Source: Carallia brachiata (Eukaryota; Streptophyta; Magnoliopsida; Malpighiales; Rhizophoraceae). From it: DNA of 64,000 bases. The stretch lies in assembly GCA_021464245.1 (NCBI GenBank), contig JADCRB010000007.1, positions 744,001 through 808,000 on the forward strand, given 5' to 3'. The notes beneath the pieces are model-generated. The model made no database searches, was not told where the DNA came from, and worked only from the letters and a program-made list of their open reading frames with translations. This document shows positions 1,826 to 59,143 of this stretch, one piece after another; position 1 is the stretch's first letter, and each line of letters begins with the position of its first letter. The translations under genes and the position numbers were made by a program.

Positions 1826-4800
1826 TCAGAAGACAAAGCATCCCAGCAACACAGTTGTTAGGGTAACAGTGAGGTTGTCATCAAGATCACTACTTATGGG
1901 GAGTGATTCTACAAGAGCTGAGGCAACAGAGAGGAAGAGGAAACCAGATGCCATTTGCCAGCTGGGCTGAACATATCCAAATGAGCCGAAATAGTACATA
2001 TATCTGTCATTGAATTACCTCATTAGTCACAGTAAGTGGAGTCGCAATCAACACCGACGGTAGATACAGAAGAGATGAAGCAAAATTTACCCTATAGATG
2101 CCAAAAAACCGGCTAGTGCCATTGCAACAGTACCAGCTATGGACTTGTTTCTGTTATAAGGTAATTTCTTAGTGCCAAACCTCCTTCCCACAATGTCCGC
2201 AATCCCTGAAACAGAACAAGTAGGTACAGTTTCTTAGCCACCGCAGTTTATCCCTAGTATTTAGAAGATAAGATAACAAGCTGACCACTATAAAATATAA
2301 AAGAGAGGAATATAGATCACTTAATTAAAGTTACCATCTCCAGCACACAAGTTGCAGATTGCAGCAATTGCAATTGGGGAAGTCCTCCAATATATTGCAC
2401 AAGCAACTGTAATTGCTGTGGCATAGTAGAGAGGTCCCTTGAGAAGTTCCCTGATGCATGGAGCAAGCCAAGGACAGATTGGAATCCAAGTGAAGGAAAA
2501 AAAATAATCTAGTACAGACTCGCAGAAGAACAAGAAAGAACAAGTTCACTTTTTTCCTCTCTCCAATATTTTATATCATTAACCTATCGGAGGATCGCAC
2601 AAGAACAAAAAAGAAAGAAACATGATAAATTTTTGCCCCTGCTCAGACCATTTTATATCAATTTGGCTCACACACGCAAACAATGACATCCCATCTGGGA
2701 TATATCATGATCTTTTAAAATCCAACCAACAACTATAGCTATAAACCAAGAATACAAACAAGATACTTAGATTTAAACCAATTGGCAATTTAAACTAGAA
2801 GATATCCCTCTGCAGTGGAACAGGACAGAGAGGAGGAGGCAACTACTTAGCCTAACATTGGACACAACTGTTTGAATGTACTCAAAGGTTTTAACCTGTG
2901 GTCTCCAAATCTACTCATTGATTTCACGGTGGCCTCATCTTTCCATATTCCAGATCCCACAAGAAGCATTCGTATTATGTTCGCACCTGGAACAAGAGAA
3001 GCCAAAATTGCTCCATGACGTCCGGAACTGCAACAGTTAAAAATAGGTATTTCAGCAGGCAGATAAAAACACCATGTAGATCCTGGTGGCCAATAGTCAT
3101 GAAATTACCTGAACAGTGGCCAACAAAGCACAAAAGCTAGCCCAATGCTTATGTGAACAAGCTTCCTGTTCAGCTTCTGAAAAATAAGAACGAAAGCAAT
3201 CTCTAAGATGAAGAAATATACGAAATTTCAGACAGCAACCTTTATGGAGGAATTGGAAGATTGAAATGTCCCTCACACCTGACAGATTGAAGTTGGTTTA
3301 TGTAAGGGTGTAAACACCAAAAAAAAATCACAAAAAAAAAAATTCAATGCATGCCTACATGAAAGCAACAAGTGCATGCATATGAAAATGATGATTTCCA
3401 TATGGTTGGTGACCATGCAAAAAGTCAAAATCCAACCACCAAAGATGACCCTTGTCATGTAGGATCCTACCCATGATAAATCATATGGAAATTTTAATTT
3501 TCATTTGATTGCAAAATGTCAAAATTTAACCACCAAAAAGGACTCTTGTCATGTAGGATCATACTCATGATGAATCATATGGAAATTTTAATTTCCATTT
3601 GATTGCAAAATGTCAAAATTCAACCACCAAAGAGGTCCCTTGTCATATATGATCCAAATCATACAATTTTGGCATCCATCCTCCCCCAACCCTATAAATA
3701 GGCATCCCCTCAAAACCTTTCAATCTATCCCATGCAAAGCAAAATCCTCTCTTCTAAAGCTTTGCATTCTTTCTTTCTCTCTCTAAACATTTTAGGTGTA
3801 TGCTCTCTAACTGCCACTGAATTGGATCCGCTAAATCAAAATTCCAAGATATTAAAATCTTATATATCCGAGTGGGATCAAGCCTCCTACGGCCCTCACC
3901 AGAGTCCATCCAGTTCGAGTGGGACCAAGTCTCTTACGGCCCTCACCGGAGTTCAATCAATTTGAGTGGGATCAAACCTCTTATGACCCTCACCGAAGTC
4001 CATCCAGTCCGAGTGGGATCAAGTCTCCTACGGCCCTCATCGGAGTTCAACTAATCCACTTGAGATCAAGCCTCGACCCTCAGTGGGATCCATTTCCTAC
4101 AGTTCAAGTTCACGCTGTGGAAATTCAACATCTCTCGGTCAAGATTAAGCCTTCACGGACCTTGATTAAATTACACAGGAGCATTAATCGGAGGATCTAC
4201 TCAGAGATCGAACTCGCATAAATTTTAAATTTTTTTTTCTGTAATTTATTTTTGTATTTTTGAGTCTAACTGTTACAGGCTCGAAATTTACCCGTTACAA
4301 ATTTTTGGCACGCTCAATGGTACAACTCTACCTCCCATCTTTTACTCCTTAGAAAAAAAAAAAAATTGGTAGCACAACGCCCATTTCAGGGCCTATGGGC
4401 CGTGAAATGGCCAACACCAACACAACTCTAAAGGGCAGGAATCCAGCGCATCGGTGGCACTAAAGATGAACAAGACTATCGCTACTAGTAAAAGGACGAC
4501 TGCTCAATCGCCTACATTAATCATCTTACTTGAGTACGTAGGTTCGCAAACTCGTGCATGGACACAGTTCTCATCCAACTGACTCAGTAGAGGGACACAA
4601 GCACCGACTCTATGACAAGCTCACTTCCAACTGGGACGGACTATACCTGGTTCAAGAAGCCTACGTCAATTACGCTTGCATGCTGTCAACGCATCCCGAC
4701 CTGTTTTCATCAAACGGTAAACTTCTAAAATTTATTGTGTAAAAAAAAAAACAAAAAAAGGCAAAAAAAAGAGAAAAATAAAAAAGGAAATAAAAAGAAA

Positions 4801-7800
4801 GAAAAACAAAAAAAAAGCAAAAAAAAAAGTGCAAAAAAAAAGCACGAAAAAAAAAGCCAAAAAAAAGAGGAAAAAAAAGAAGAAAAAAAATGTCTGAAAC
4901 TTATGTGCAAGTTCAGAACCATTTCTCAAAATCCAAATCTAGATTTGGGGGCAGATCTCAAACCCCGATTCAAAACCCAACAAATCCAAATTCGGGGACA
5001 AAATTCAAGCCCGAACCCAAATTCCAGTTCAAAATCCAAGTCCAAATTCAAACTCGGGCCTAAAGCCCAAATTCAAATCCAGGCCCAAAAAAACTAAATT
5101 CAAACCCCAGTCTAAAGCCCAAATTCACCAAATCTAAACAAGAGCTCAAACCTCAAATCTAAGTTCCAACTCAAAGTCCAAATCCAGATTCGGAGACAAA
5201 GCTTAAACCCTGAATCAGAATCCAAGTCAGCAACTCAACAGCTTACCAGCTCAATAGCTCACCAAACAACTCAATAGCTCAGCAACTCTCCGGCTCAGCA
5301 GCTCAACAACTCAGTAGCGCACCAACTCTTCGGCTCAGCAGCTCAACAGCCAAACAGCTCAGCAGCTCACCAGCTTAACAGCTCAGCAACTCAACAAGTC
5401 AACAGCTCAACAGCATTCCAGCAATGCACTCCTGCCTCGCAAGAGTATAAAAGGCGATCAACAGTTCAGCACTCCTGCCTCGCACGAGTATAAAAGGCGA
5501 TCAACAGTTCAGCACTCCTACCTCGCACGAGTATAAAAGGCAAACAGCTCTACAACGTACTCCTGCCTCGCACGAGTATAAAAGGCGATCAACAGTTCAG
5601 CACTCCTGCCTCGCACGAGTATAAAAGGCGACACCACAGTTCAGCACTCCTGACTCGCACGAGTATAAAAAGCAATCAACTACAGCACACTCCTGCACCG
5701 CACGAGTATAAAAGGCGAACAATCCAGCAAACTAGACTTCTGACCCGCACGAGTATAAACTGTGAACGGCCCAAAAAAAAAATCGGAAGTCCCGATCTGA
5801 AAGCTCAAGCGAAAGTCAAAACCCAAGCGAAAGTCAAAGCTCAAATACAAAATCCAAACACTCAACAATCCAGCAAACCAACTCCTGACGCGCACGAGTA
5901 TAAACTGTGAACGGCCCAAAAATATAAAAGCGACGGAGGGTTTGAGTCTGAAACTTAGCATCAGTCTCAACCGATCTTCACCACATATCAGACCTTTACT
6001 CCTCTACCACGCGAAAGATGGAACCAGTTGCAGAACCTCAAGACAAGGGCGAAAAAAAGTCACCCCGCACAAGGTAGCAACCAGCCATGGCACAACTGCA
6101 AATTTTGGAGGAAGTCTTCCACAATAATGGAGATATTATTCTTAATGCATCCCAGATTTACCAACTTGTCTCACGATTGCGCCCGCTCGAGGCAATCGAA
6201 GGAAAAAATGTGTTTTATTGGTTCCAGAATCAGAGAAGTAGGAAGAAACCAGTACTGAGAACTGTTTTTTCCAAAGCACAGTCTACCGTTCAGATAGTAG
6301 ATCCCACCGGTACAGCTTCGCCCTCAAATGAAGCAGGTCCGAGTTCTACCACTGCAATGGTCTCTTCAAGTTATAACGATCAAAACATTAGCCTGTGGGA
6401 ACATGTGTACTGGTCCTGGTGGTCTTATGGAGTCAGTCACAGGTTCATTCTTCCTAAGTACTTGAGTTTAGGAGAGACTTTTCTAGCAGAAAGAAGTCAT
6501 TCCGGCGAAACCTTACCTCTCTTTCCAGAATATTCCAGCAGCATCAACCAGCCGGAAGACTCCAGCGACGTCAACATCATTGGCCCACCAGACGAGGCTG
6601 AGCTTGACTTAGAGCTGCGCCTCGGGTCCCACCAGGACGGTTGACAAGATAAGGCGCAACGACTTCTGCAGTACACGGCAACGACTTCTGCAACACACGG
6701 TAATGACTTTCGTGACGCGCGTCAGCCGCTGCTTCTTTTGTCTCTTATGCAGGAAAGAGACGTGGATGACCCTACTTGATTCTGCGTACCTCCTTTTTTT
6801 TGACTTTTCAAAAAAAAAAACTCTTTATGTTATGTATATGTATCCTGCATATTCGAGCCATAATACTCACCCCTCAGCTTTTCTTCTTCTCAAAAGAAAA
6901 TGGCTAGTCTTTACACTTGTCTAAGGAAGTTCTTTGATCAAGAAGTTGGAGGCGCACGAGCTAAGAAAAGAAAGAGTAGTCTTCCTCGAGGGATCCCTAA
7001 AGCCCTCGAAACTCAGTCTCTAACGTCATCGGTGTCATGGAGTTCCAACTACTCTCCTTAGTTCACATTTACCACAGAGGGATGAGACGCTTCAATCATC
7101 ATAATCTTCCTTTAGATGCAACGACGTACAGGGAAGTTCCAACTACTCTCCTTGTCATGTAGGATTCTACTCATGATGAATCATATGGAAATTTTAATTT
7201 CCATTTGATTGCAAAATGTCAAAATTCAACCACCAAAGAGGGCCATTGTCATGTATTATCTAAATCATACAATTTTGGCATCCATCCTCCCCCAACCCTA
7301 TAAATAGGCATCCCTTCAAAGCCTTTCAATCTATCCCATGCAAAGCAAAATCCTCTCTTCTAAAGCTTTGCATTCTTTCTTTTTCTCTCTAAATATTTTG
7401 GATGTATGCTCTCTAACTACCACTGAGTTTGATCCGCTAAATCAAAAATCCAAGATATTAAAATCTTAAATATCCGAGTGGGATCAAGCCTCCTACGGTC
7501 CTCACCGGAGTCCATCCAGTTCGAGTGGGATCAAGCCTCTTATGGCCCTCACCGGAGTTCAATCAATTCGAGTGGGATCAAGCCTCTTATGGCCCTCACC
7601 GAAGTCCATCCAGTCCGAGTGGGATCAAGCCTCCTACGGCCCTCACCGGAGTTCAACTAATCCACTTGAGATCAAGTTTCGGCCCTTAGTGGGATCCATT
7701 TCCCACAGTTCAAGTTCACGTTGTGGAAATTCAACATCTCTCGGTCAAGATTAAGCCTTCACGGCCCTTGACTAAATTACACAGGAGCATTAATCGGAGG

Positions 7801-9708
7801 ATCTACTCAGAGATCGAACCCGCATAAATTTTAAATTTTTTTTTCTGTAATTTGTTTTTGTATTTTTGAGTCTAATTGTTATAGATTCGAAATTTACCCG
7901 TTACAAAGGGTCTAAACATCTTGCTAAGAAGTAAACAAATCCTGGGGTCTATGCAAAAATTCATGGGATTCCCTTTTCAGAGTCTAACATGTGATCTTTG
8001 GGTTGCAAATTAAACCTTTTAAGTTTGAATGGTTTCCTGACATGATATGAATTTTCGCATATAAATGGAAACTTTATCTTGTTCATGCTTTCAAGTCCAA
8101 ACAAGTTTAATTCGTGAGTTGGATGTCTTCTTCTTCAATTTTTTAGGTCATTAGAAACAAGCAGTCAACTATAAAGTTTTTTTTTTTTAGGAAATTCTCT
8201 ACAAGTTTAGCTTAATTATGAAATTCTGTCGAATCATACGCAAATTGCAAAAAGAGCTTCACTTGTTCATGCGCTTTTTACGTTTAAGTTAAAGAACACA
8301 AAGCGTATGCACCAAACAAACAAAAGAACACAAAGCGGGTCCACTTCATCCCCATGTTGCACTATTTATTTAATAAATTTCTATTTTGAAGTTGTTCTCC
8401 TCATTTTTTAAAGGGTTTTTTTTCTTTCATGAGTATGGGTACAAATTAAAAGGAAAACTGTCAAATAAGCGTTTATAATATAATAAAATTTAAAATTTTT
8501 CATAATTATTTTAATAAAAAAATATAATAAAAAATTATTTTTTTTCATTTTACATATTATTATTATAATTATAATAAATTTTAAATTTGTTAATAACAGC
8601 ATATACTTGGGATATGTACTTTTTTGGTAAATATATAGATTTCACCTATTATTTTTAGTTTTTTTGAAAATTTCGCTTACAATATTTTTTATTTTAAATT
8701 ATACTCTCAACGTTTCTGTCGTCAATCTTTTTATCCTCTACTGTTAGTTCGTCGTTAAATTTAATATTTAACAGTACAATTATTATCACGTCGTCTAATT
8801 CGAATAACATATTAGTATACAGTGATGATTTCATAAATAATAATTTTTTTAAAATTTTTCTTTCAAATATTATGAATTTTAAAAAATTAAAAGAAAATAT
8901 TATTTATCGTTTTATAAAGTTAAAATTAAAAATAAAAATAAAGAGTGTATTATCTGTATATATTATAACAAGTAAATGTCTAAAGAGAATTAATCAAGAA
9001 AGTATAAGATATGTCATATCATTATTTTATTAAATGTCAAATCATCACTTTATACTGATATATTATTCACATTAGACAATATGATAATAATTACACTATT
9101 AAATATTAAATTTAATAATAAATTAATGGAAAAAGATGAAAAATATTAATGATAGAAATATGAAGTGTGTAGAATTTAAAATATAAAAATGTTATGAGTG
9201 AAATTTTAAAAAAGTTGAAAGATGAAGGGTGAAATTGATATATTTATTTGTTATTTTTTTTTTTTTTACATATAATAAACAGTGAGAGAGTAAGAGAGAG
9301 AAAGAGGGGGAGTGTTTTGACCTGGTCGAAGACTTGACGTTTTGCGGTCTGTTCCCAGAAACGGAGAAGAGAGAGAGCGATAGCAGCGGTCAGACCAGAA
9401 GAGTAGAGATCGGAGACGAAAGGATCTGAGGGAAGCATGGCTGCGGCGGAGGCGGCCGCCGCCGCTGCCGACGAAAGCGACCTCAGGTCCCGTCTAGATG
9501 TCCGCAACTTCAGTTCGCGAAATCCGAACTCAAATCCGACACTGTTACCGACACTGGTACGAGAATAGGAAAAAGCAGATAAACCTAGTAGATTTAACAC
9601 TGCAGGCTTCGGTCTAAGGAAGGATCTGTGACTGAAACGGTAAGTGTCGGATCGAAAACTGGTAACGGACGACAGTAGGAGAGCTGGCGTACGTCTGTCG
9701 GTTGCCAT
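1826..9708 (-). CDS. FOLK: farnesol/phytol kinase, chloroplast type (FOLK-like), six exons
   Basis: Membrane-bound polyprenol kinase that phosphorylates farnesol (or phytol) for isoprenoid salvage. Exons read on the minus strand: 9708-9322, 3176-3109, 3027-2896, 2450-2335, 2205-2091 and 2003-1826. All introns are GT-AG, phases agree, and the product is 331 residues, close to the plant family (about 300). Exon 1 starts at MATDRR and gives a Ser/Arg-rich transit-peptide-like N terminus, then VFDQ joining KLNRKLVHISIGL. Family motifs follow: SMSRFGDHRELLKGPLYY, SPIAIAAICNLCAGDG, ADIVGRRFG and LPYNRNKSIAG, and the C terminus has VESLPISSDLDDNLT. Several hydrophobic helices are expected. An upstream in-frame ATG at 9768 exists, but MATDRR fits a transit peptide better. 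Intron 1 is about 6.1 kb because it contains an LTR retrotransposon in the opposite orientation and a MITE. No frame break was seen. FOLK is preferred over VTE5 from the C-terminal motifs. Confidence 0.9.
3309..4299 (+). repeat. 5' LTR (991 bp)
   Basis: Full-length left LTR with TG...CA ends. It contains two to three tandem copies of a ~93-bp unit (marked by CTTGTCATGTAGGAT and CAACCACCAAA), a TATA motif CCTATAAATAGG near 3691-3702, and downstream a second tandem array at about 3868-4080 of ~44-bp units marked by GAGTGGGATCAAGCCTC. It shares its last ~755 bp with the right LTR, with visible substitutions, so the insertion is not very recent. Confidence 0.88.
3692..3700 (+). promoter_or_regulatory. 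TATA box of the 5' LTR
   Basis: CTATAAATA lies in a C-rich context in the left LTR; the same motif sits at 7288-7296 in the right LTR. The position fits a U3/R boundary promoter that would drive transcription rightward through the interior ORF. Confidence 0.5.
4735..5430 (+). repeat. A-rich tract followed by degenerate short tandem repeats
   Basis: Bases 4735-4895 are almost pure A with scattered G and C. Then 4920-5210 repeat a CCAAATTCAAA-like motif, and 5220-5430 repeat AGCTCAACAGCTCAGCAACTC-like units. Long open frames on both strands here (poly-Lys, poly-Phe) come from composition, not selection. This is non-coding leader of the retrotransposon interior. Confidence 0.6.
5430..5910 (+). 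repeat. TATA-box minisatellite upstream of the WUS-like ORF
   Basis: A ~43-bp unit, roughly CTCCTGCCTCGCACGAG followed by TATAAAAGGCGA and CAACAGTTCAGCA, recurs eight times between about 5430 and 5760, and a ninth copy lies near 5885-5910 after a spacer. Every copy keeps a TATAAA core, although the flanks vary. A further ATATAAAAGCG follows at about 5920. The array ends roughly 100 bp before the first ATG of the homeobox ORF, so it may act as a multi-TATA promoter; that role is inference. Confidence 0.75.
6018..6644 (+). pseudogene. WUSCHEL-like homeobox ORF inside the LTR retrotransposon, one in-frame stop
   Basis: Intronless frame with the WUS-clade domain order. From ATG 6018 it begins MEPVAEPQ and reaches a homeodomain whose helix 3 reads IEGKNVFYWFQN (6195-6230), diagnostic of WOX proteins. 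A WUS box TLPLFP lies at 6510-6527 and an EAR-like LDLELRLG at 6603-6626, ten residues from the end. WUS proteins bind DNA through the homeodomain and recruit TOPLESS-type corepressors through such C-terminal motifs. A TAG at 6075-6077 replaces the codon expected for the invariant Trp of homeodomain helix 1. The next ATG, 6087, has context AGCCATGGC and would give 185 residues with an N-terminally clipped homeodomain. The lack of introns suggests capture from an mRNA. It may be a disabled copy or a shortened translated form; the rest of the frame is open. Confidence 0.8.
7151..7905 (+). repeat. 3' LTR, lacking the first ~235 bp of the 5' LTR
   Basis: It aligns with 3544-4299 of the left LTR, including the TATA box and the ~44-bp tandem array. 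The first part of the left LTR (TGTAAACACC onward) is not found here. The sequence immediately before it, AGTTCCAACTACTCTCCTT at 7135-7152, duplicates 7041-7059, which points to a local rearrangement at the junction. No clear polypurine tract is visible. Confidence 0.8.
8627..9250. mobile_element. foldback MITE with ~200-bp inverted termini, in FOLK intron 1
   Basis: The left arm (from GGTAAATATATAGATTTCACC) and the reverse complement of the right arm (CAAATAAATATATCAATTTCACC) run parallel for about 200 bp, sharing ATTTTAAAT, TTAAATTTAATATTTAA, AATTATTATCA and GTGATGATTT in the same order. The centre is AT-rich and non-coding. A target duplication was not clear. The large perfect-order TIRs suggest a Mutator-like non-autonomous element. 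Confidence 0.65.
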
Positions 9709-13892: not shown

Positions 13893-16376
13893 AGTTAGTG
13901 TCAGGAGGAAGTTCTACAATTTCCTTCAAAATTTGTATGTAGTTCTTTTGTTGTTAAATCTTAAAGTATAATAGATTTATTAACCAAAAAAAAAAAAAAG
14001 TCTAATAGATTTGCTTCTTGATTGCAGGAAAAAATCGCTGAAAATATGGAACGCTTGATCAAAAAAAACAACGACAGAATACCACAACTATGGCTTAAAA
14101 AAACTAACGAAATGAGGGCTTTGGCAACGATTCCTCCATGTCCCAACACTGTCCCTTTGGCCCCAAGTTCATACCAAGTGTGGAATAGTAATTATAAATC
14201 TAACTTAGACTGTCGTGAGGTGGGGGATAATGGATTTGAGACCCCTTTAAAGCTACCGGATGGCAAAGCCCCAGCTTCGTCATTGGGTGGTCGTAACAAC
14301 AATTCAAAAAATGCATCTAGACCGCAAGCCCAGAAGGATAAGGCAGTCCATGGTCTTGTTGATCTAGCAATTCCCGCTGCTGCTGTTCTGATGATCATAA
14401 TAACAATTCACAAAATGCATCTAGACCACGCCCCCATAAGGATCTGGCCCTCCGTGTCTTGTTGATCCAGCAATTCCTACTACTGCTGGTGCTGATGTTG
14501 GTCATAATAACAATTCACAAAATGCATCTAGACCGCGCCCCCAAAAGGATAAGGCAAACCATGGTGTTGTTTTAGCAATTCCGGCTGTTGCTGGTGCTGA
14601 TATTCGTCGCAACAACAGTTCACAAAATGCATCTAGACCACGTCCCCATAAGGATCTGGCGGTCCATGGTCTTGTTGCTCCAGCAATTCCTGCTGGTGCT
14701 GATGGTGGTTGGAATAACAATTCACAAAATGCATCTAGACCACGCCCCCATGAGGATCTAGCAGTCCATGGTCTTGGTTGTCCAGCAATTACTGCTGCTG
14801 CTGGTGCTGATGGTGACAATCATGTCCCAATAGTCAACACTCAAGCTGTGTCTTGGCATAGCCAAGTTGGATCAAGACGCAGTCCGAGCCCCTCGAAGTT
14901 GGACCCCAAAAGGCTTAAAAAGTATGTATTTTTGTCCAAAGCATTTTCTACTATAATAATATATAAGCATGGTCATATGATTTTGTGAATTAACGTATCT
15001 TGTCTTTAACTGACTTTTTTAATGTCAATAGTATTCTTCAGTCTACGTCTTGTTACTATGGGAACATTTAAACATTGTTGGATTATATTTTTTTGGTCTA
15101 CAGGCTTATCTCGAACCGAGAATCCGCAGAGAGAGCTAAATTGAGGCATGCTCAGTTCGTTAGCGACATGGAAAGCAAAGTTAAAGCTTTAGAGGTAACA
15201 TGATGTCTATAAATTTCTTACCATTTTGGGATATATATATTTTTTATTTTTGCGGCGCGATCACGTGCTATCGTTAATCGAGTTTGATATTAATTAATAA
15301 AAATTATCGATCTGCTCCATAACTTTATTTAGAAGTAGTGATAATTTACCTAATTGTCGGATAAGCTAATAACAAACATGTAAATTTTTTAAGTCCCAAA
15401 TTTTTATGCTCATGTAATATTATGTGACAAGATAAACTAAACTTTTTTTAATTTCCTCATAGGCTACCGTATCATATATGTCTTCTAAAGTCGAATTTCA
15501 TAGAAGGAGGCAACAGTTATTACTGAAGGAGCAGAAAAGGTTACAGGAAGAACTGATTTTTAGCACAAAATTCAACATACTCAAGGAAGGTGAATATACG
15601 AGCAAATATACGATGATAATTCATTGTAATCATTTGTTGTAAGTGTGGTTATAATTGTTAATATGCTCAATGTCCAATGATGACGAACTTGAACTTATTT
15701 TGCAGTTGAAATTAAGGACACCCAGGCCGAAATAAAAAGGCTGAAGCTTCAAATATCACTACAACAGGAACAATTTCATAGAATGATGCATGTTTGGGAA
15801 GACGAAATTGGAGGAGGGCAGCCTCATTCATCACAACAACAGGAAATTTTTCATGGACTAATGCCTGTTTGGGAAGAGGGTATTGGAGGAGGGCAGCACC
15901 ATTCATCAAAACAGCAGGAAAATTTTCAAGGAATAATGCCTGTTTGGGAAGACGGGATGGGAGGAGGGCAGCCCCATGCATCGCAACAACAGGAAAATTT
16001 TCATGGAATAATGCCTGTTTGGGAAGACTGGATTGGGGGAGGGCAGCCCCATTCATCAAGACAGCAAGAAAATTTTCATGGAATAATGCCTGTTTGGGAA
16101 GATGGGATAGGAGGGTGGCAGCCCCATTCCTCACAACAGCAGGAACAATTGCATGGAAGTACGCCTGTATGGGAAGATGCGAATTCGTCACAACAACAGG
16201 AAAATTTTCATGGAATAATTCCTGTTTGGCAAGATGGGATTGAAGGAGGGCAACCCCATTCACCACAACAACAAGAACAATTTCATGGAATAATGCCTGT
16301 TTGGGAAGATGACATTGACGAATGGTTAAATCTAAGCCCGAATCATCCTAGCACCGGGCAGACGGGTTCTATATGA
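13893..16376 (+). CDS. plant bZIP transcription factor (group E/I-like) with coding minisatellites
   Basis: Exons: a possible leader 13893-13936, then 14028-14921, 15104-15194, 15463-15589 and 15706-16376, with phase-consistent GT-AG introns in the core. The likely start is ATG 14046 (MERLIKKN). The spliced core reads DPKRLKKLISNRESAERAKL then RHAQFVSDMESKVKALE, a bZIP basic region with N-x7-K and the start of the zipper. It continues as VSYMSSKVEFHRRR and ends IKRLKLQISLQQEQF. The order DPKR, basic region, long zipper matches plant bZIPs related to bZIP34/61. N-terminal to the core are four ~37-residue repeats; C-terminal are eight ~24-residue repeats. The first and second N-terminal repeats are out of frame with each other and with the rest (a 4-bp and a 1-bp difference between units), so the upstream part cannot be joined to the core as written. 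Nuclear DNA-binding role is expected; targets are unknown. Confidence 0.75.
14287..14818 (+). repeat. coding minisatellite, ~111-bp unit, N-terminal side of the bZIP gene
   Basis: About 4.7 copies of a unit marked by AACAATTCACAAAATGCATC and AGACCACGCCCCCATAAGGA. Translated, each gives NNNSQNASRPRPHKDLAVHG then an Ala/Pro/Gly spacer ending GAD. Unit-to-unit length changes of 4 and 1 bp shift the frame between copies 1/2 and 2/3; copies 3 to 5 stay in frame with the bZIP core. Confidence 0.85.
15780..16325 (+). repeat. coding minisatellite, ~72-bp unit, C-terminal side of the bZIP gene
   Basis: Eight tandem units each encode about 24 residues of the form FHGIMPVWEDGIGGGQPHSS then QQQE. One unit is shorter. 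All stay in frame through to the stop at 16374-16376. The conserved W in PVWED and the Gln run are kept while other positions vary, consistent with repeat growth inside an expressed protein. A degenerate CAACAGGAAAATTT fragment also appears at 16640 in the downstream non-coding region. Confidence 0.9.
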
Positions 16377-20663: not shown

Positions 20664-22602
20664 TGAAGATGAACATTGATCTGAATGCAAGCAATGATAC
20701 TTGTTTGGTTGAAACAGATGAAGTTTCAGAGCCATATATTGGTATAGAATTTTGAACAAATGAAAAAGCACATGCATTTTATTTGCAATATGCTAAGCAT
20801 GTTGGATTTGGAATCTCAATAATTGCTAGTCGACGTTCTAAGATATCTGGTGGCTTCATTGATGTTAGATTTGCATGCACTCGATATGTTGTTAAGAGAG
20901 AATCTAATAATGCTAATCCTCGACTTGGAGTTAAAATTGATTGCAAAACATTTTTACATGTGAAAAGAAAAAATGAATGGGATACGGTACGTTCAAAATT
21001 TTATTATGGAGCATAATCATGAACTGTTACCTAGTTATTAGAGAGGAAGCATATCATTTTTCTTGTCATAGGAGGTTTCCTTTGGAAGATAAAAATAATA
21101 TGGACATGTTGAATGCAGTTCAGATACGACCTATTAAGATTTTTGCAGCAATAGCTAAACAATATGGTCGGTATGAAAATGCTGTTTGCATAGAAAAAGA
21201 TGTAAGAAATTACCTTGATAAACAAAAGCGTTTGGCTTTGGAGGGAAGGCGATGCTAATGCCATGCTCGAGCATTTCATTCAAATGCAAGAAAAGAACTC
21301 TTCTATGCAATTGGTTTAGATAAAGAGCAACAGTTAAGAAATGTTTTTTTGGGTTGATGCTGAAGGGAAGGAAGACTACAAGAAATATAGTGATGTTGTT
21401 TTATTTGACACTAGATACATCACCAACAAATACAAGATGTATTTTGCCCCGTTTATTGGAGTTAATAATCATTTTCATTCTATATTACTCAGATGTGCAT
21501 TATTTTCAAATGAGAGTCAGGATACTTTTACTTGGTTGATCAAAACATGGCTTAGGGCTATGAGTGGACAGTCTCCTCAAGCAATCTTAACTGACCAAGA
21601 TAAAGTCATAAAAGCCGCAATAGCAAAGGTGTTTCCCTATGCTCGACACCGTTTTTGTTTATGGCACATATTGAAAAAACTTCCTAAAAAAATTAGTCAT
21701 GTGATGCAAAAACATTCGTGTTTTATGGGAAATTTTAAAAGGTGCATATATAGATCATGGACTGAAGAAAAGTTTGAGAATCGATGGTGGTTAATGGTTC
21801 AGAAATATGAGCTTCATAAGAATGAATGGGTCCAATCTCTTTATGAGGATCGTGAGCATTGAGTGCCACTCAAAAATCTGAAAGTATCAATTCTTTTTTG
21901 ATAAATAAGTGAACAAGAAGACAATTCTCAAGAAATTTGTTGAGAAGTACAAAAAAGTTCTAAAAGATAGGGAAAAAGAGGAAGCTATTGCTAATTTTAA
22001 TACTTGGCATAAGGTTCCACCTCTGAAGTCTCTATCTCTATTTAAAAAGTAATTGTCAACAATGTACATTAATGCGATATTTAAAAAATTTCAAGTTGAA
22101 GTTTTGGGAGTTTCTGAATGTTTCGCTAAAAAGGAAAAAGAAGATTAAACAACTCTTGTATTTAAGGTTGAGGATTTTGAGCAAAAAGAAGAGTTTGTTA
22201 TTGTTTGGAATAGAATTCAAGATGGAATTTGTTGCTTGTGGCACTCTTTTGAGTATAAAGGATTTCTTTGTAAACATATCTTATCTGTGCTTCATAATTT
22301 GGGAATAGTTGAGATCCCAAGGCAATATATATATTAAGTAGGTGGACCAAGAGTGCCAACAAAAGAGGAGGTGATGAAAGAATCAAAGTATCAGGAGCAA
22401 AAACACAATACATTGTGTTTATTAACTACACAAATTAATGAGGCTGCATCATTTTCGAAGAATTGTTATGATTTTGCATATCCTGCTCTAGTAGAAATTT
22501 TGAATAAATGTACTAGGATCAATGAATCGTGTAGACAACCAAGAAGATGGATTGTAAATGAGCACTATGAATATGATAGTGGTAAGAAAAGAAAATTATG
22601 AC
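20664..22602 (+). pseudogene. FAR1/FRS-type MULE transposase, disrupted
   Basis: Starts MKMNIDLN at 20664. The FAR1 zinc-binding domain is visible (EKAHAFYLQYAKHVGFGIS, CTRYVVKRESNNANP and after a frame change EHNHELLP). The MULE transposase domain is 21341-21862: VDAEGKEDYKKYSDVVLFDT gives the first catalytic Asp, AILTDQDKVIKAAIAKVFPY the second, followed by RFCLWHILKKLP. A SWIM-like zinc-finger remnant, CCLWHSFEYKGFLCKHILS, lies near 22228-22285, and a C-terminal piece ends at 22602. Stops after GIEF (20751), after HELLPSY, at 21256, at 21860 and later, plus several frame shifts, break it. FAR1/FHY3 transcription factors descend from such transposases; here the position between Mutator TIRs shows a transposon copy rather than a domesticated gene. 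Confidence 0.8.
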
Positions 22603-51899: not shown

Positions 51900-53462
51900 C
51901 TAATGGAATCTCCAGCTAGAAACCTTCACTAATGGAGTCCCCATGTAACTCAAGACCATTTCATTCTGATTTACTCCTTCCAAGCTTATGCAGTAAAAAT
52001 TCTTGCCTTCCAGGACAAGCTCCTTGGCCTCCATAAGATTGTCATATGTCATCCTCCAAGCTTCCAATCCTGCCTCTGAAATTGCCTTATTTTCCCTGCT
52101 GATATCCTCCCACATTTGTGCATTGGTAAGAGAAGAAATAAAGGGTATCAAGAATAGAGATTCCATGGCTATCCTTGCTTCCCTGAAGTGATGAGGAAAA
52201 TGACAATCCATTGATTCCATCAGGACTTGGAGCTGAATCAACTGCTCTTCAAACAAGGACCCATATCCACTCCAGCCTTTGATCCCCTTCCCCCAACCGA
52301 ATCCGTCCCCGAAAGTTAAAATTCCTGGATTAGTCCCATCATTATGATGATCCAAACTGATTGATTCCTTGGCAATCTTTAGAAATTCTGCAACTCTTTT
52401 AACACTTCTCGCTTTCCCCATGTGAGGGAGCCCCACCATGCAATTGAAGACTAACCATTCACTATTTCCACCATATCTGTTCATTGTTTTCTTCATCTCA
52501 ATTGCCAAGGCCTCGATATCCATCTCCTCCATTGATGATATAATGCCAAACATATATGCATGTTGACATAGCTGCATTCTTGTTTCATTGAACCTCTGCA
52601 TAGAATAAATAGAATTACGATCCTCATGATCATCCCATTTTATCGCGGTAAATCTCATTGCTTTTTTGCCTTGCCTTGCGAGTGCCTCGATTAATGGAGG
52701 CCATTGTATGCCTCTGCCAATGTCAAAATCAATGATATGCAACATCTGTACATCTTCAGGCATAGCTTCTAGTATAACAGAATTGGCAGTGAAGTGAGCA
52801 AACTGGCCGTAAGGAAATATCTGATAAAAGGCTCTGAAAGCAGCTTCATAGTTCCTGCTTGATTCTTCCCATATAAAGTCTACCTGTTTGTCCAAAGCTT
52901 GGATAAAATAGTAAGCGATACGTTGCAGGGCTGGACCAGTTGGACAAGCCTTCTTCCTGAGTCGATACATAATTTCTTCTGCTAACCTCTTTGTCTCCAT
53001 CTCGATGGCCTCTCCGTATGCCTTTAGCAGATGTAATATGCTCAATTGATCATCAATTTTCATGCCATCACTAGGCAAAACTAAGGATGATAGGATTTCC
53101 TCCGATGCCTTGCTCGATTCGAGCGACATATGCAGGCTAGCTTGATCATCCCCATGGCCGTGGGGTTGTTGTTGTTTTGAAGGTTGAGTATTACTGCTGT
53201 CACTTAGCAACCACTTGCTAAAATCGGGAGCCACATTGACCATTAACTGGTCATCTAAATTAGCATCATTCTCCAAATTTAGCAAGCAATTCTGAGCTGG
53301 AAACATGACTGGCAAGTCATCATAATCAGGGAAGTTTTGTGATCCATCAACATGACCGGTTACGGATAATGGGAGAGAAGAAGAACCATTGGAGAAATTT
53401 TTAAACATTGCTGAAGTCGAGTACTGATGATCATAGTCATAGCTGCCCAGTTGGACATCCAT
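51900..53462 (-). CDS. GRAS-family transcriptional regulator, intact single exon
   Basis: Single uninterrupted frame of 520 residues, typical of GRAS genes, starting MDVQLGSYDYDHQ. The variable N terminus has a Gln/His stretch (QQQPHGHGDD). The GRAS domain starts at about residue 140: leucine heptad I (ILHLLKAYGEAIEMETKRLA), the VHIID motif as LHIIDFDIGRGIQWPPLIEA, then MRFTAIKWDD. Leucine heptad II is degenerate, the PFYRE motif reads PHHFREARIAMESL, and the SAW end is LVKVSSWRFH. GRAS proteins act in the nucleus as cofactors in gibberellin, root, symbiosis and meristem pathways. No DELLA motif is present. The VHIID and PFYRE variants suggest the NSP2/SCL26-like side of the family, but the subfamily is uncertain. 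Splicing or frame problems are absent. Confidence 0.85.
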   Translation of the reverse strand: MDVQLGSYDYDHQYSTSAMFKNFSNGSSSLPLSVTGHVDGSQNFPDYDDLPVMFPAQNCLLNLENDANLDDQLMVNVAPDFSKWLLSDSSNTQPSKQQQPHGHGDDQASLHMSLESSKASEEILSSLVLPSDGMKIDDQLSILHLLKAYGEAIEMETKRLAEEIMYRLRKKACPTGPALQRIAYYFIQALDKQVDFIWEESSRNYEAAFRAFYQIFPYGQFAHFTANSVILEAMPEDVQMLHIIDFDIGRGIQWPPLIEALARQGKKAMRFTAIKWDDHEDRNSIYSMQRFNETRMQLCQHAYMFGIISSMEEMDIEALAIEMKKTMNRYGGNSEWLVFNCMVGLPHMGKARSVKRVAEFLKIAKESISLDHHNDGTNPGILTFGDGFGWGKGIKGWSGYGSLFEEQLIQLQVLMESMDCHFPHHFREARIAMESLFLIPFISSLTNAQMWEDISRENKAISEAGLEAWRMTYDNLMEAKELVLEGKNFYCISLEGVNQNEMVLSYMGTPLVKVSSWRFH

Positions 53463-58280: not shown

Positions 58281-59143
58281 TCACGATAGAGGTGCACAGT
58301 AACAAGAAGGGCACCTGAGCAGACCGTTCTCATTGCACGCCGTACAGCTCTTGAACCCGGTTTTCTCTATATACAACTTGTGGCTACCGTTACATAGGGT
58401 GCACAGAACGAACCTATAACCGCCGCACACGTCACACACTCCCGGCTCCGCTGCGGGCAAGCCTTCGACGAACTTCTTGAGCTCGCCGCACTCGTGTAGC
58501 TGCCGAATCTCCTCGGCCCCGCCCATGTACCTCCCTCCGATGAAAACCCTAGGCAAAGTCAACTTGCTGCTTTGACCGCCGGCGTCTCCGCGGCCGAAGA
58601 TCTGCTGCAGCTCGTTTAAGAAACCGGCGTCCATGGAGAGATCCCGCTCGTCGATCGAGACTCTCAACCCGCGGAGGATGGATCGGACGGCGCGACAGTC
58701 CTCGAACGTCGGCCGCACCACGCGGAGGCTCGTGAAATAAACGACAATTCTTTTGTCGGCGCCGGGAACGAGATGGACGGCTGCGGCGGCGTCGGCGGCG
58801 GCGGCTGAGCTTCGCATTCGGTTTTTGGCGGCGGCGTTGGTTCTGGGGTTTCATTGGTTGCGGAGCCATTGGGTTGGGGTTCGAGTTCAAATTTCGAGTC
58901 GAGTCGGGGTAGGGTAAGGGAGCGAGGGGAGGACCACGTGCGGAGGAGCGAGTTCGCGGCACGCGCGCGGTGGAAAACGGAAGACTTTCTGGGGGATGAG
59001 GAAGGATCCTCGGTGCAGAGGAGTTGGATATCTTTGAAGGTGGGGAAGGCGAAGGCAGAAGAAGAAGATGATGATGAAGAAGAAGGTGAGGCGGTGGAGG
59101 TGGAGTGAATCTTGACCGTTGATTTAACCCACGGCCGCCACAT
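58281..59143 (-). CDS. glutaredoxin-domain protein with C-terminal Cys-rich zinc motif (At5g39865-like)
   Basis: Intronless gene, start MWRPWVKSTVKIH at 59143. The N-terminal half is Ser- and Pro-rich (low complexity). The glutaredoxin domain begins RIVVYFTSLRVVRPTFEDCR, includes IDERDLSMDAGFLNELQ, LPRVFIGGRYMGGAEEIRQL, and is followed by four CxxC pairs (CDVCGGYR, CTLCNGS, CTACNENG, CPSCYC) in a DnaJ-like zinc arrangement. As usual in this plant family the active-site CxxC of classic glutaredoxins is absent (TSLRVVR with a later Cys), so a redox role is not certain. The frame changes near 58764-58766: SISFP and GADKRIVVYF join only if one base is missing beside a GGG run. Start choice follows the longest frame with family-like sequence. 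Confidence 0.85.

Follow-up and report, generated by a model that had tools for sequence, protein, structure and literature searches.

Which gene lies between the LTRs of the retrotransposon described here, and does it belong to the element or is it only carried by it? The question is raised by one locus in the 64-kb window, the whole stretch of Carallia brachiata DNA that we analyzed. A preliminary description of this stretch had recognized a WUSCHEL-type homeobox (WOX) frame inside an LTR element, in the place where gag-pol is usually found. It proposed that a non-autonomous element had captured the gene from an mRNA, and that such copies, if dispersed, would form a mobile family of which no description was known.

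Structure of the Element in the Window

Positions 3309-7905 are a single LTR insertion with TG...CA ends, a PBS-like site and a 5-bp target-site duplication (TSD), AAGGG. These features, already noted in the preliminary description, are present, and of the usual marks of an LTR retrotransposon (paired LTRs with TG..CA, PBS, PPT and a TSD of 4-6 bp) this copy has lost the PPT. The two LTRs are a real pair: 3545-4299 and 7151-7905 are 94.4% identical over 755 bp, with 34 transitions and 8 transversions. The 3′ LTR is incomplete, however: the 236 bp with which the 5′ LTR begins are missing from it. The first part of the 5′ LTR contains three 94-bp tandem units, and TATAAATA is found inside this LTR at 3693. 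In the spacer, the minisatellite units contain TATAAA, and CGAGTATAAA occurs in eight of them; both are putative promoter words. The features are collected in Table 1.

Table 1. Features of the LTR element and its WOX frame, in window positions
Feature	Position	Strand	Basis or remark
Target-site duplication AAGGG, left copy	3304..3308	.	Sequence inspection
5′ LTR, 991 bp, TGTAAACACC...CGTTACA	3309..4299	+	Further copies elsewhere in the genome
PBS-like stretch starting TGGCACGC, putative	4306..4323	+	Same place and same start in L032 and L034
Gag leader / N-terminal remnant	4463..4570	+	tblastn to L034 2487-2594, E=3.6e-5; blastn to L034, L033 and L035
Pol C-terminus remnant	4599..4739	+	tblastn: L034 E=1.8e-9, L031 E=6.6e-9, L035 E=2e-5
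Non-coding spacer: A-rich stretch, short-unit repeats, ~43-bp minisatellite (5445-5930)	4740..6017	+	
WUSCHEL-type additional ORF (WOX aORF), intronless, sense to the element	6018..6644	+	Broken by TAG at 6075-6077
Homeodomain, three helices	6066..6251	+	Pfam; model of the read-through protein
WUS box TLPLFP	6510..6527	+	Invariant in the 36-row alignment
EAR-like motif LDLELRLG	6603..6626	+	Sequence and copies
3′ untranslated interior	6645..7150	+	PPT lost at the junction with a repeated 16-mer (7042, 7136)
3′ LTR, 5′-truncated	7151..7905	+	K2P against the 5′ LTR 0.058
Target-site duplication AAGGG, right copy	7906..7910	.	Sequence inspection

Between 4570 and 4599 the middle of gag-pol, corresponding to about 2595-6170 of the related copy L034, is absent. 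Because a piece of the gag leader and the C-terminus of pol flank this missing middle, the window copy can be read as a deletion derivative of a family with gag-pol. The pol remnant found no tblastn match in another copy, L033. When five short interior frames were compared with Pfam, four gave no match and the fifth matched DUF2729 at 0.11, which we took as chance, as we did PHROGs matches at 0.2-0.25. In IMG/VR the WOX frame had 13 pattern matches and the pol-end frame 10, with no relative among them. The window copy is a dead member of its family, with the gag-pol middle deleted, a stop in the homeodomain, the PPT gone and LTRs 5.8% apart.

Elsewhere in the window, an open frame at 21341-21862 (+) has a MULE transposase domain (Pfam E=1.9e-30). 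On the minus strand, 51900-53462 is an open frame for an NSP2-like GRAS protein of 520 aa. By identity its closest matches are Malpighiales proteins (Dovyalis, Turnera, Salix and Hevea, 54-57%), although the top score belongs to an Ilex protein (46%). Also on the minus strand, 58281-58817 is a glutaredoxin-like frame with a Pfam match to the GRXCR1/2 C-terminal domain. Tandem-repeat arrays lie at 14288-14820 and 15755-16318; the second has a unit of about 75 bp and is open on both strands.

The WOX Frame

The homeobox frame had been described as running from 6018 to 6644. Its part from 6087 to 6644 (185 aa) is open; the TAG upstream of it replaces the codon of the invariant Trp in the N-terminal arm of the homeodomain. 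Across 91 copies, the window included, this codon is TGG in 82 and TAG in 3, and WFQN with the basic residues after it is retained in most.

The homeodomain, the WUS box and the EAR-like motif reported for this intronless frame were all recovered. Pfam identifies the homeodomain at E=4.1e-8, and the best PDB structures are WUSCHEL (6ry3, E=3.8e-11) and STENOFOLIA (6wig, E=1e-9). The frame has the combination characteristic of WUSCHEL and the modern WOX clade, that is, a WOX homeodomain plus a WUS box of the form TLxLFP. A protein search without read-through of the stop gave 4 matches (best E=3.2e-7), while the same search with the stop read as Trp gave 416 at E<=10 (best 5.3e-14), and most of the best 120 among these carry the name WUSCHEL or are homeodomain proteins without a name. 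In the predicted structure of the read-through protein the three helices of the homeodomain have pLDDT 76-92 in blocks of residues 21-80; the mean for the whole model is 60, with low confidence for most of the protein outside the homeodomain.

A Dispersed Family in the Host Genome

The host genome (337.5 Mb, 164 contigs) encodes this protein at no fewer than 260 places, a hand tally and lower bound obtained as 150 + 129 - 19 overlaps. A search with the WOX frame, in which the best 150 of 2192 candidates were scored, gave matches of 77-86% identity over nearly the whole protein, the window itself excepted. A search with a Turnera WUS protein gave at least 138 matches of 1372 candidates, of which 9 are at host WOX genes and 129 at copies of the element. 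By our own count, at least 58 of the 129 listed element places have one common score, with the same residues and no stop, and three of these (L061, L083 and L089) have the same sequence from the homeodomain on into the linker after it. Such equality hints at a recent burst of the family. An assembly artefact as the source of the family was rejected because the copies sit on many contigs.

Do the LTRs travel with the gene? The preliminary description had named, as the case that would speak against it, LTRs that never flank the homeobox elsewhere. The window 3′ LTR has at least 93 matches in the genome (40 of 1555 candidates scored), and among the matches listed at least 14 pairs lie 2.7-5.1 kb apart. 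All six of these 14 pairs that we checked enclose the WOX frame. Four do so by coordinates (the window, C132 at 7.22 Mb, C145 at 1.35 Mb and C131 at 4.10 Mb), and two others, on C102 and C99, were chosen by the LTR alone and then read. The C102 copy has a deletion within the homeodomain, and the C99 copy is only partly inside the stretch read. The expectation of a dispersed, mobile family is borne out in that LTR and WOX frame move together, and the evidence supports a WUS-type gene that has spread to many places in the genome as part of a mobile LTR element.

LTR divergence is 0.072 in L034 and 0.080 in L032. A copy on C86, whose WOX row is free of stops and whose LTR starts are 8.8 kb apart, has LTRs that differ by 3 mismatches, besides 15 gapped positions, over 586 aligned columns (571 bases compared), the 5′ LTR being partial in the stretch read. 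A purine-rich GAAGTGG(G/A)GGCATT stands upstream of the 3′ LTR in L034, L032 and the C86 copy. L034 has, by eye, the TSD CCAAC, provided that its last base changed; a TSD was sought at L032 and the C86 copy and not found. At C138:448831-452761 and at L014 two WOX frames lie 1.5-4 kb apart on a single strand, suggesting nested or tandem copies.

Linkage to gag-pol and Classification

Five long copies, L031-L035, were compared. That the homeobox stands instead of gag-pol holds for the window copy and for L032, a short element of the same type. In the other four (L031, L033, L034 and L035) the WOX frame is preceded by gag-pol-like stretches and lies in sense direction between pol and the 3′ LTR. 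A Pfam scan of ten frames of L033, L034 and L035 found in L035, in this order, Retrotrans_gag, a weak protease below the curated cut-off, RVT_1, RT_RNaseH, RVT_3 and rve. L033 gave gag, RT_RNaseH, RVT_3 and rve, with no match to protease or RVT_1, and L034 gave a weak protease. L031 was assigned gag-pol by its DNA, which matches that of L034 at 92% over 3.1 kb. None of these four copies showed an uninterrupted gag-pol, and L034 is without a piece present in L033.

The order gag - protease - RT - RNase H - integrase is that of Ty3/gypsy. In L033 and L035 RVT_3 follows RT_RNaseH and precedes rve, and we read it as a probable second RNase H (aRH). The part of PMC6317226 consulted names Ogre and Retand as the Tat elements of angiosperms and recognizes them by an additional RNase H that follows RH and precedes INT; with RVT_3 so read, the Carallia family has this arrangement. 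A Retand-type antisense ORF was sought between pol and the 3′ LTR of L031-L035, and no antisense frame of at least 200 codons was present. The family is a Ty3/gypsy family of Tat type that has the WUS-like gene as an extra ORF in sense direction, and the window element derives from it by deletion.

Positions 218-6394 of L033 and 1-6188 of L035 show that copies may differ sharply along their length: their gag-pol is 98% identical, their 3′ parts (spacer, WOX and LTR) 85%. They are mosaic elements, produced perhaps by template switching.

Origin of the Captured Gene

If the gene came from the host, then we can ask: From which gene, and by which route? From homeodomain core to WUS box the two host WUS genes, L096 and L097, measure 1066 and 1173 nt, the element about 300. 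Since the host genes are interrupted there and the element frame is not, the captured copy looks processed; the absence of the donor introns is what the proposed capture from an mRNA leads one to expect. Introns could also have been lost later, as the element moved through RNA.

The element homeodomain is 65 residues long, as in all 15 WUS rows, and seven other host WOX rows have 64. The homeodomain tree was discarded as a means of fixing the donor, WUS not being favored over other modern WOX genes. Its element branch is long (1.17), the AU test gave p 0.375 for WUS with the elements and 0.19-0.51 for four other groupings, and the neighbor of the element was a WOX3-like row with weak support (36/4). 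The donor was probably WUSCHEL.

Selection on the WOX Frame

How much constraint has acted on the gene since its capture? We compared 91 copies, the window included: the 30 best of the WOX-frame list, one from its middle, and L035 with 59 more from lower down. Changes were scored against the commonest codon and divided by the number of copies sharing them. Singletons comprised 59 synonymous, 180 nonsynonymous and 10 stop changes, with an omega-like ratio of 1.12. Changes common to 2-4 copies (64 synonymous, 102 nonsynonymous, 9 stop) gave 0.585, and those common to at least 5 copies (55, 82 and 7) gave 0.547; the difference between the last class and the singletons has p=0.0024 by Fisher's test. 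By region, the changes in at least 5 copies gave 0.37 in the homeodomain, 0.97 in the linker, 0.43 in the next 35 residues and 0.54 at the C-terminus.

When all variants in at least 3 copies (0.55) were set against singletons, the p value was 0.0006 for the 91 copies. It was 0.005 without C>T/G>A changes and 0.0099 for the 61 lower copies. Two of the five subsets were not significant: the top 30 (p=0.14) and the 61 without C>T/G>A (p=0.33). The ranking of copies by protein similarity biases the sample towards conservation, and the contrast of private with shared changes is less affected by this, though not immune. In 31 copies, pairwise NG86 gave a median dN/dS of 0.46, and mean dN / mean dS was 0.46 in frame against 0.65 and 0.84 in the shifted frames.

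Over the compared stretch 34 of the 91 copies have no internal stop and 57 have at least one. In 2000 runs of neutral drift to 50% homeodomain identity the mean number of new stops was 5.6, and one or none was left in 1.9% of runs. For the decay since the window insertion 0.73 stops are expected, with which the one seen is in line. We read these figures as pointing to neutral decay after insertion and constraint during transposition, strongest in the homeodomain. Allowing for the two tests that were not significant and for a non-random sample of copies, the pattern is that of purifying selection on a gene of the element's life cycle, and the WOX gene seems to be kept by selection in the family.

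Discussion

The reading that we prefer, with a probability of about 0.7, is that a Tat family of Ty3/gypsy took up a processed WOX gene of the modern clade, most likely WUSCHEL, and kept it as a sense gene between pol and the 3′ LTR. An intronless copy would have been acquired in this way and retained as an extra gene. Its predicted product may be a nuclear DNA-binding repressor, acting through homeodomain, WUS box and EAR motif. It may mimic or compete with host WUS and the TOPLESS-type co-repressor in meristem cells; TOPLESS would be recruited through WUS box and EAR. The element would gain from dividing cells that produce the germline. A WUS-like repressor serving the element is the function predicted from the sequence.

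We also compared WUS-site words with shuffles in four LTRs and the minisatellite. They were not enriched in the four LTRs, which argues against the simplest model of self-regulation; any regulation of the element would act elsewhere or indirectly, for example via cell state. The minisatellite had TGAA/TTCA above shuffles (p 0.01), one of 35 tests, and this was taken as chance. A bolder proposal, somewhat likelier to be wrong than right, is that a master regulator of stem cells has been made an accessory gene of the element, its protein reprogramming or antagonizing meristem cells and thereby securing the expression and inheritance of the element. Such a plant counterpart of a retroviral oncogene would be either parallel to the case in Vigna discussed below or related to it by common descent.

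Could the gene instead be a passenger, transduced once and hitchhiked to high copy without benefit, its motifs mere leftovers of the donor? Plant LTR elements are known to transduce sequence (Bs1, and counts of captured genes in maize, rice and sorghum, in the part of PMC7264820 consulted). The 57 copies with stops and the two selection tests that were not significant would suit a passenger; stops common to several copies count against our preferred reading. Against it stand the contrast of 1.12 for private with 0.55 for shared changes in the whole set, and the neutral runs, in which so few stops at so great a divergence were rare; the gene is also present in copies with gag-pol and in deletion derivatives alike. 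On balance we think a passenger unlikely. Selection on a benefit to the host, from one or a few dispersed copies, would likewise explain the functional motifs that the protein retains, and dispersed copies of a regulator could be co-opted. But the signal of constraint sits in variants common to several copies and private changes look neutral, so that most single insertions are seemingly not kept for a host role, and we give this explanation very little credence.

The last alternative keeps to the preliminary description: a non-autonomous element of the window's type captured the gene, and elements with gag-pol gained it later by recombination. The mosaic nature of L033 and L035 agrees with such an exchange. 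However, gag-pol precedes the WOX frame in four of five long copies, some with quite different LTRs, and the window copy itself retains a gag leader piece and a pol end around a deletion. Capture by a non-autonomous element is not supported by these findings and looks highly improbable.

The preferred reading, capture by a Tat family, can be set beside known systems. The closest is in Vigna: by the passage on it in a 2023 meeting report (K. Naito, PMC10714607), V. riukiuensis has more than 1000 WOX copies and V. marina many, mostly between identical LTRs with TSDs. The Carallia family resembles this burst in its very many LTR-flanked WOX copies, so the belief that nothing similar had been described stands only in part. 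Vigna is another plant group, and the passage names no LTR lineage, linkage to gag-pol, WOX subtype or selection. In the open-licence PMC literature, the scope of our search, neither a Tat element with a WOX gene nor selection on such a gene turned up, and the main text of the review PMC7264820 has no word beginning with wus or homeo.

Retand, of the Tat clade, likewise has its domains in gypsy order, RH and INT being separated by a second RNase H, and it has tandem repeats with an extra gene between pol and the 3′ LTR (relevant parts of PMC11963269 and PMC6317226). In the part of PMC11963269 consulted, the extra ORFs of Retand are mostly antisense, mainly Transposase_28, and no sense ORF encodes a known domain, whereas the extra gene of the Carallia family is a sense homeodomain gene. 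Phalaenopsis gypsy elements with a captured 2-ODD (m6A demethylase) domain and other non-canonical domains likewise retained a host-type gene through amplification, and Aegilops elements carry a B3 DNA-binding domain (PMC9289625, in part). The same source, as far as consulted, names no homeodomain in its screen of 121 genomes for odd domains, in which elements were found by RT.

With plant WUSCHEL itself the element protein has in common the WUS loop longer by one residue, the TLPLFP box and the C-terminal EAR-like motif. It differs in being encoded by an intronless, transposon-borne gene and in the sequence of its homeodomain, whose median identity to 123 database proteins is 48% (highest 51%); for random pairs among 107 of these 123 the median is 94%.

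Additional ORFs of plant gypsy elements are most often without known conserved domains, according to the relevant part of PMC9289625. For this reason their use is hard to test. WUSCHEL is among the best understood plant regulators. With so well understood an ancestor, at least 260 places, little-diverged copies and a signal of selection, the use that a transposon makes of an extra gene becomes directly testable with WUS assays. Transposon copies can make the number of WOX genes in a plant genome appear too large, and the family is a source of dispersed meristem-regulator genes open to co-option by the host.
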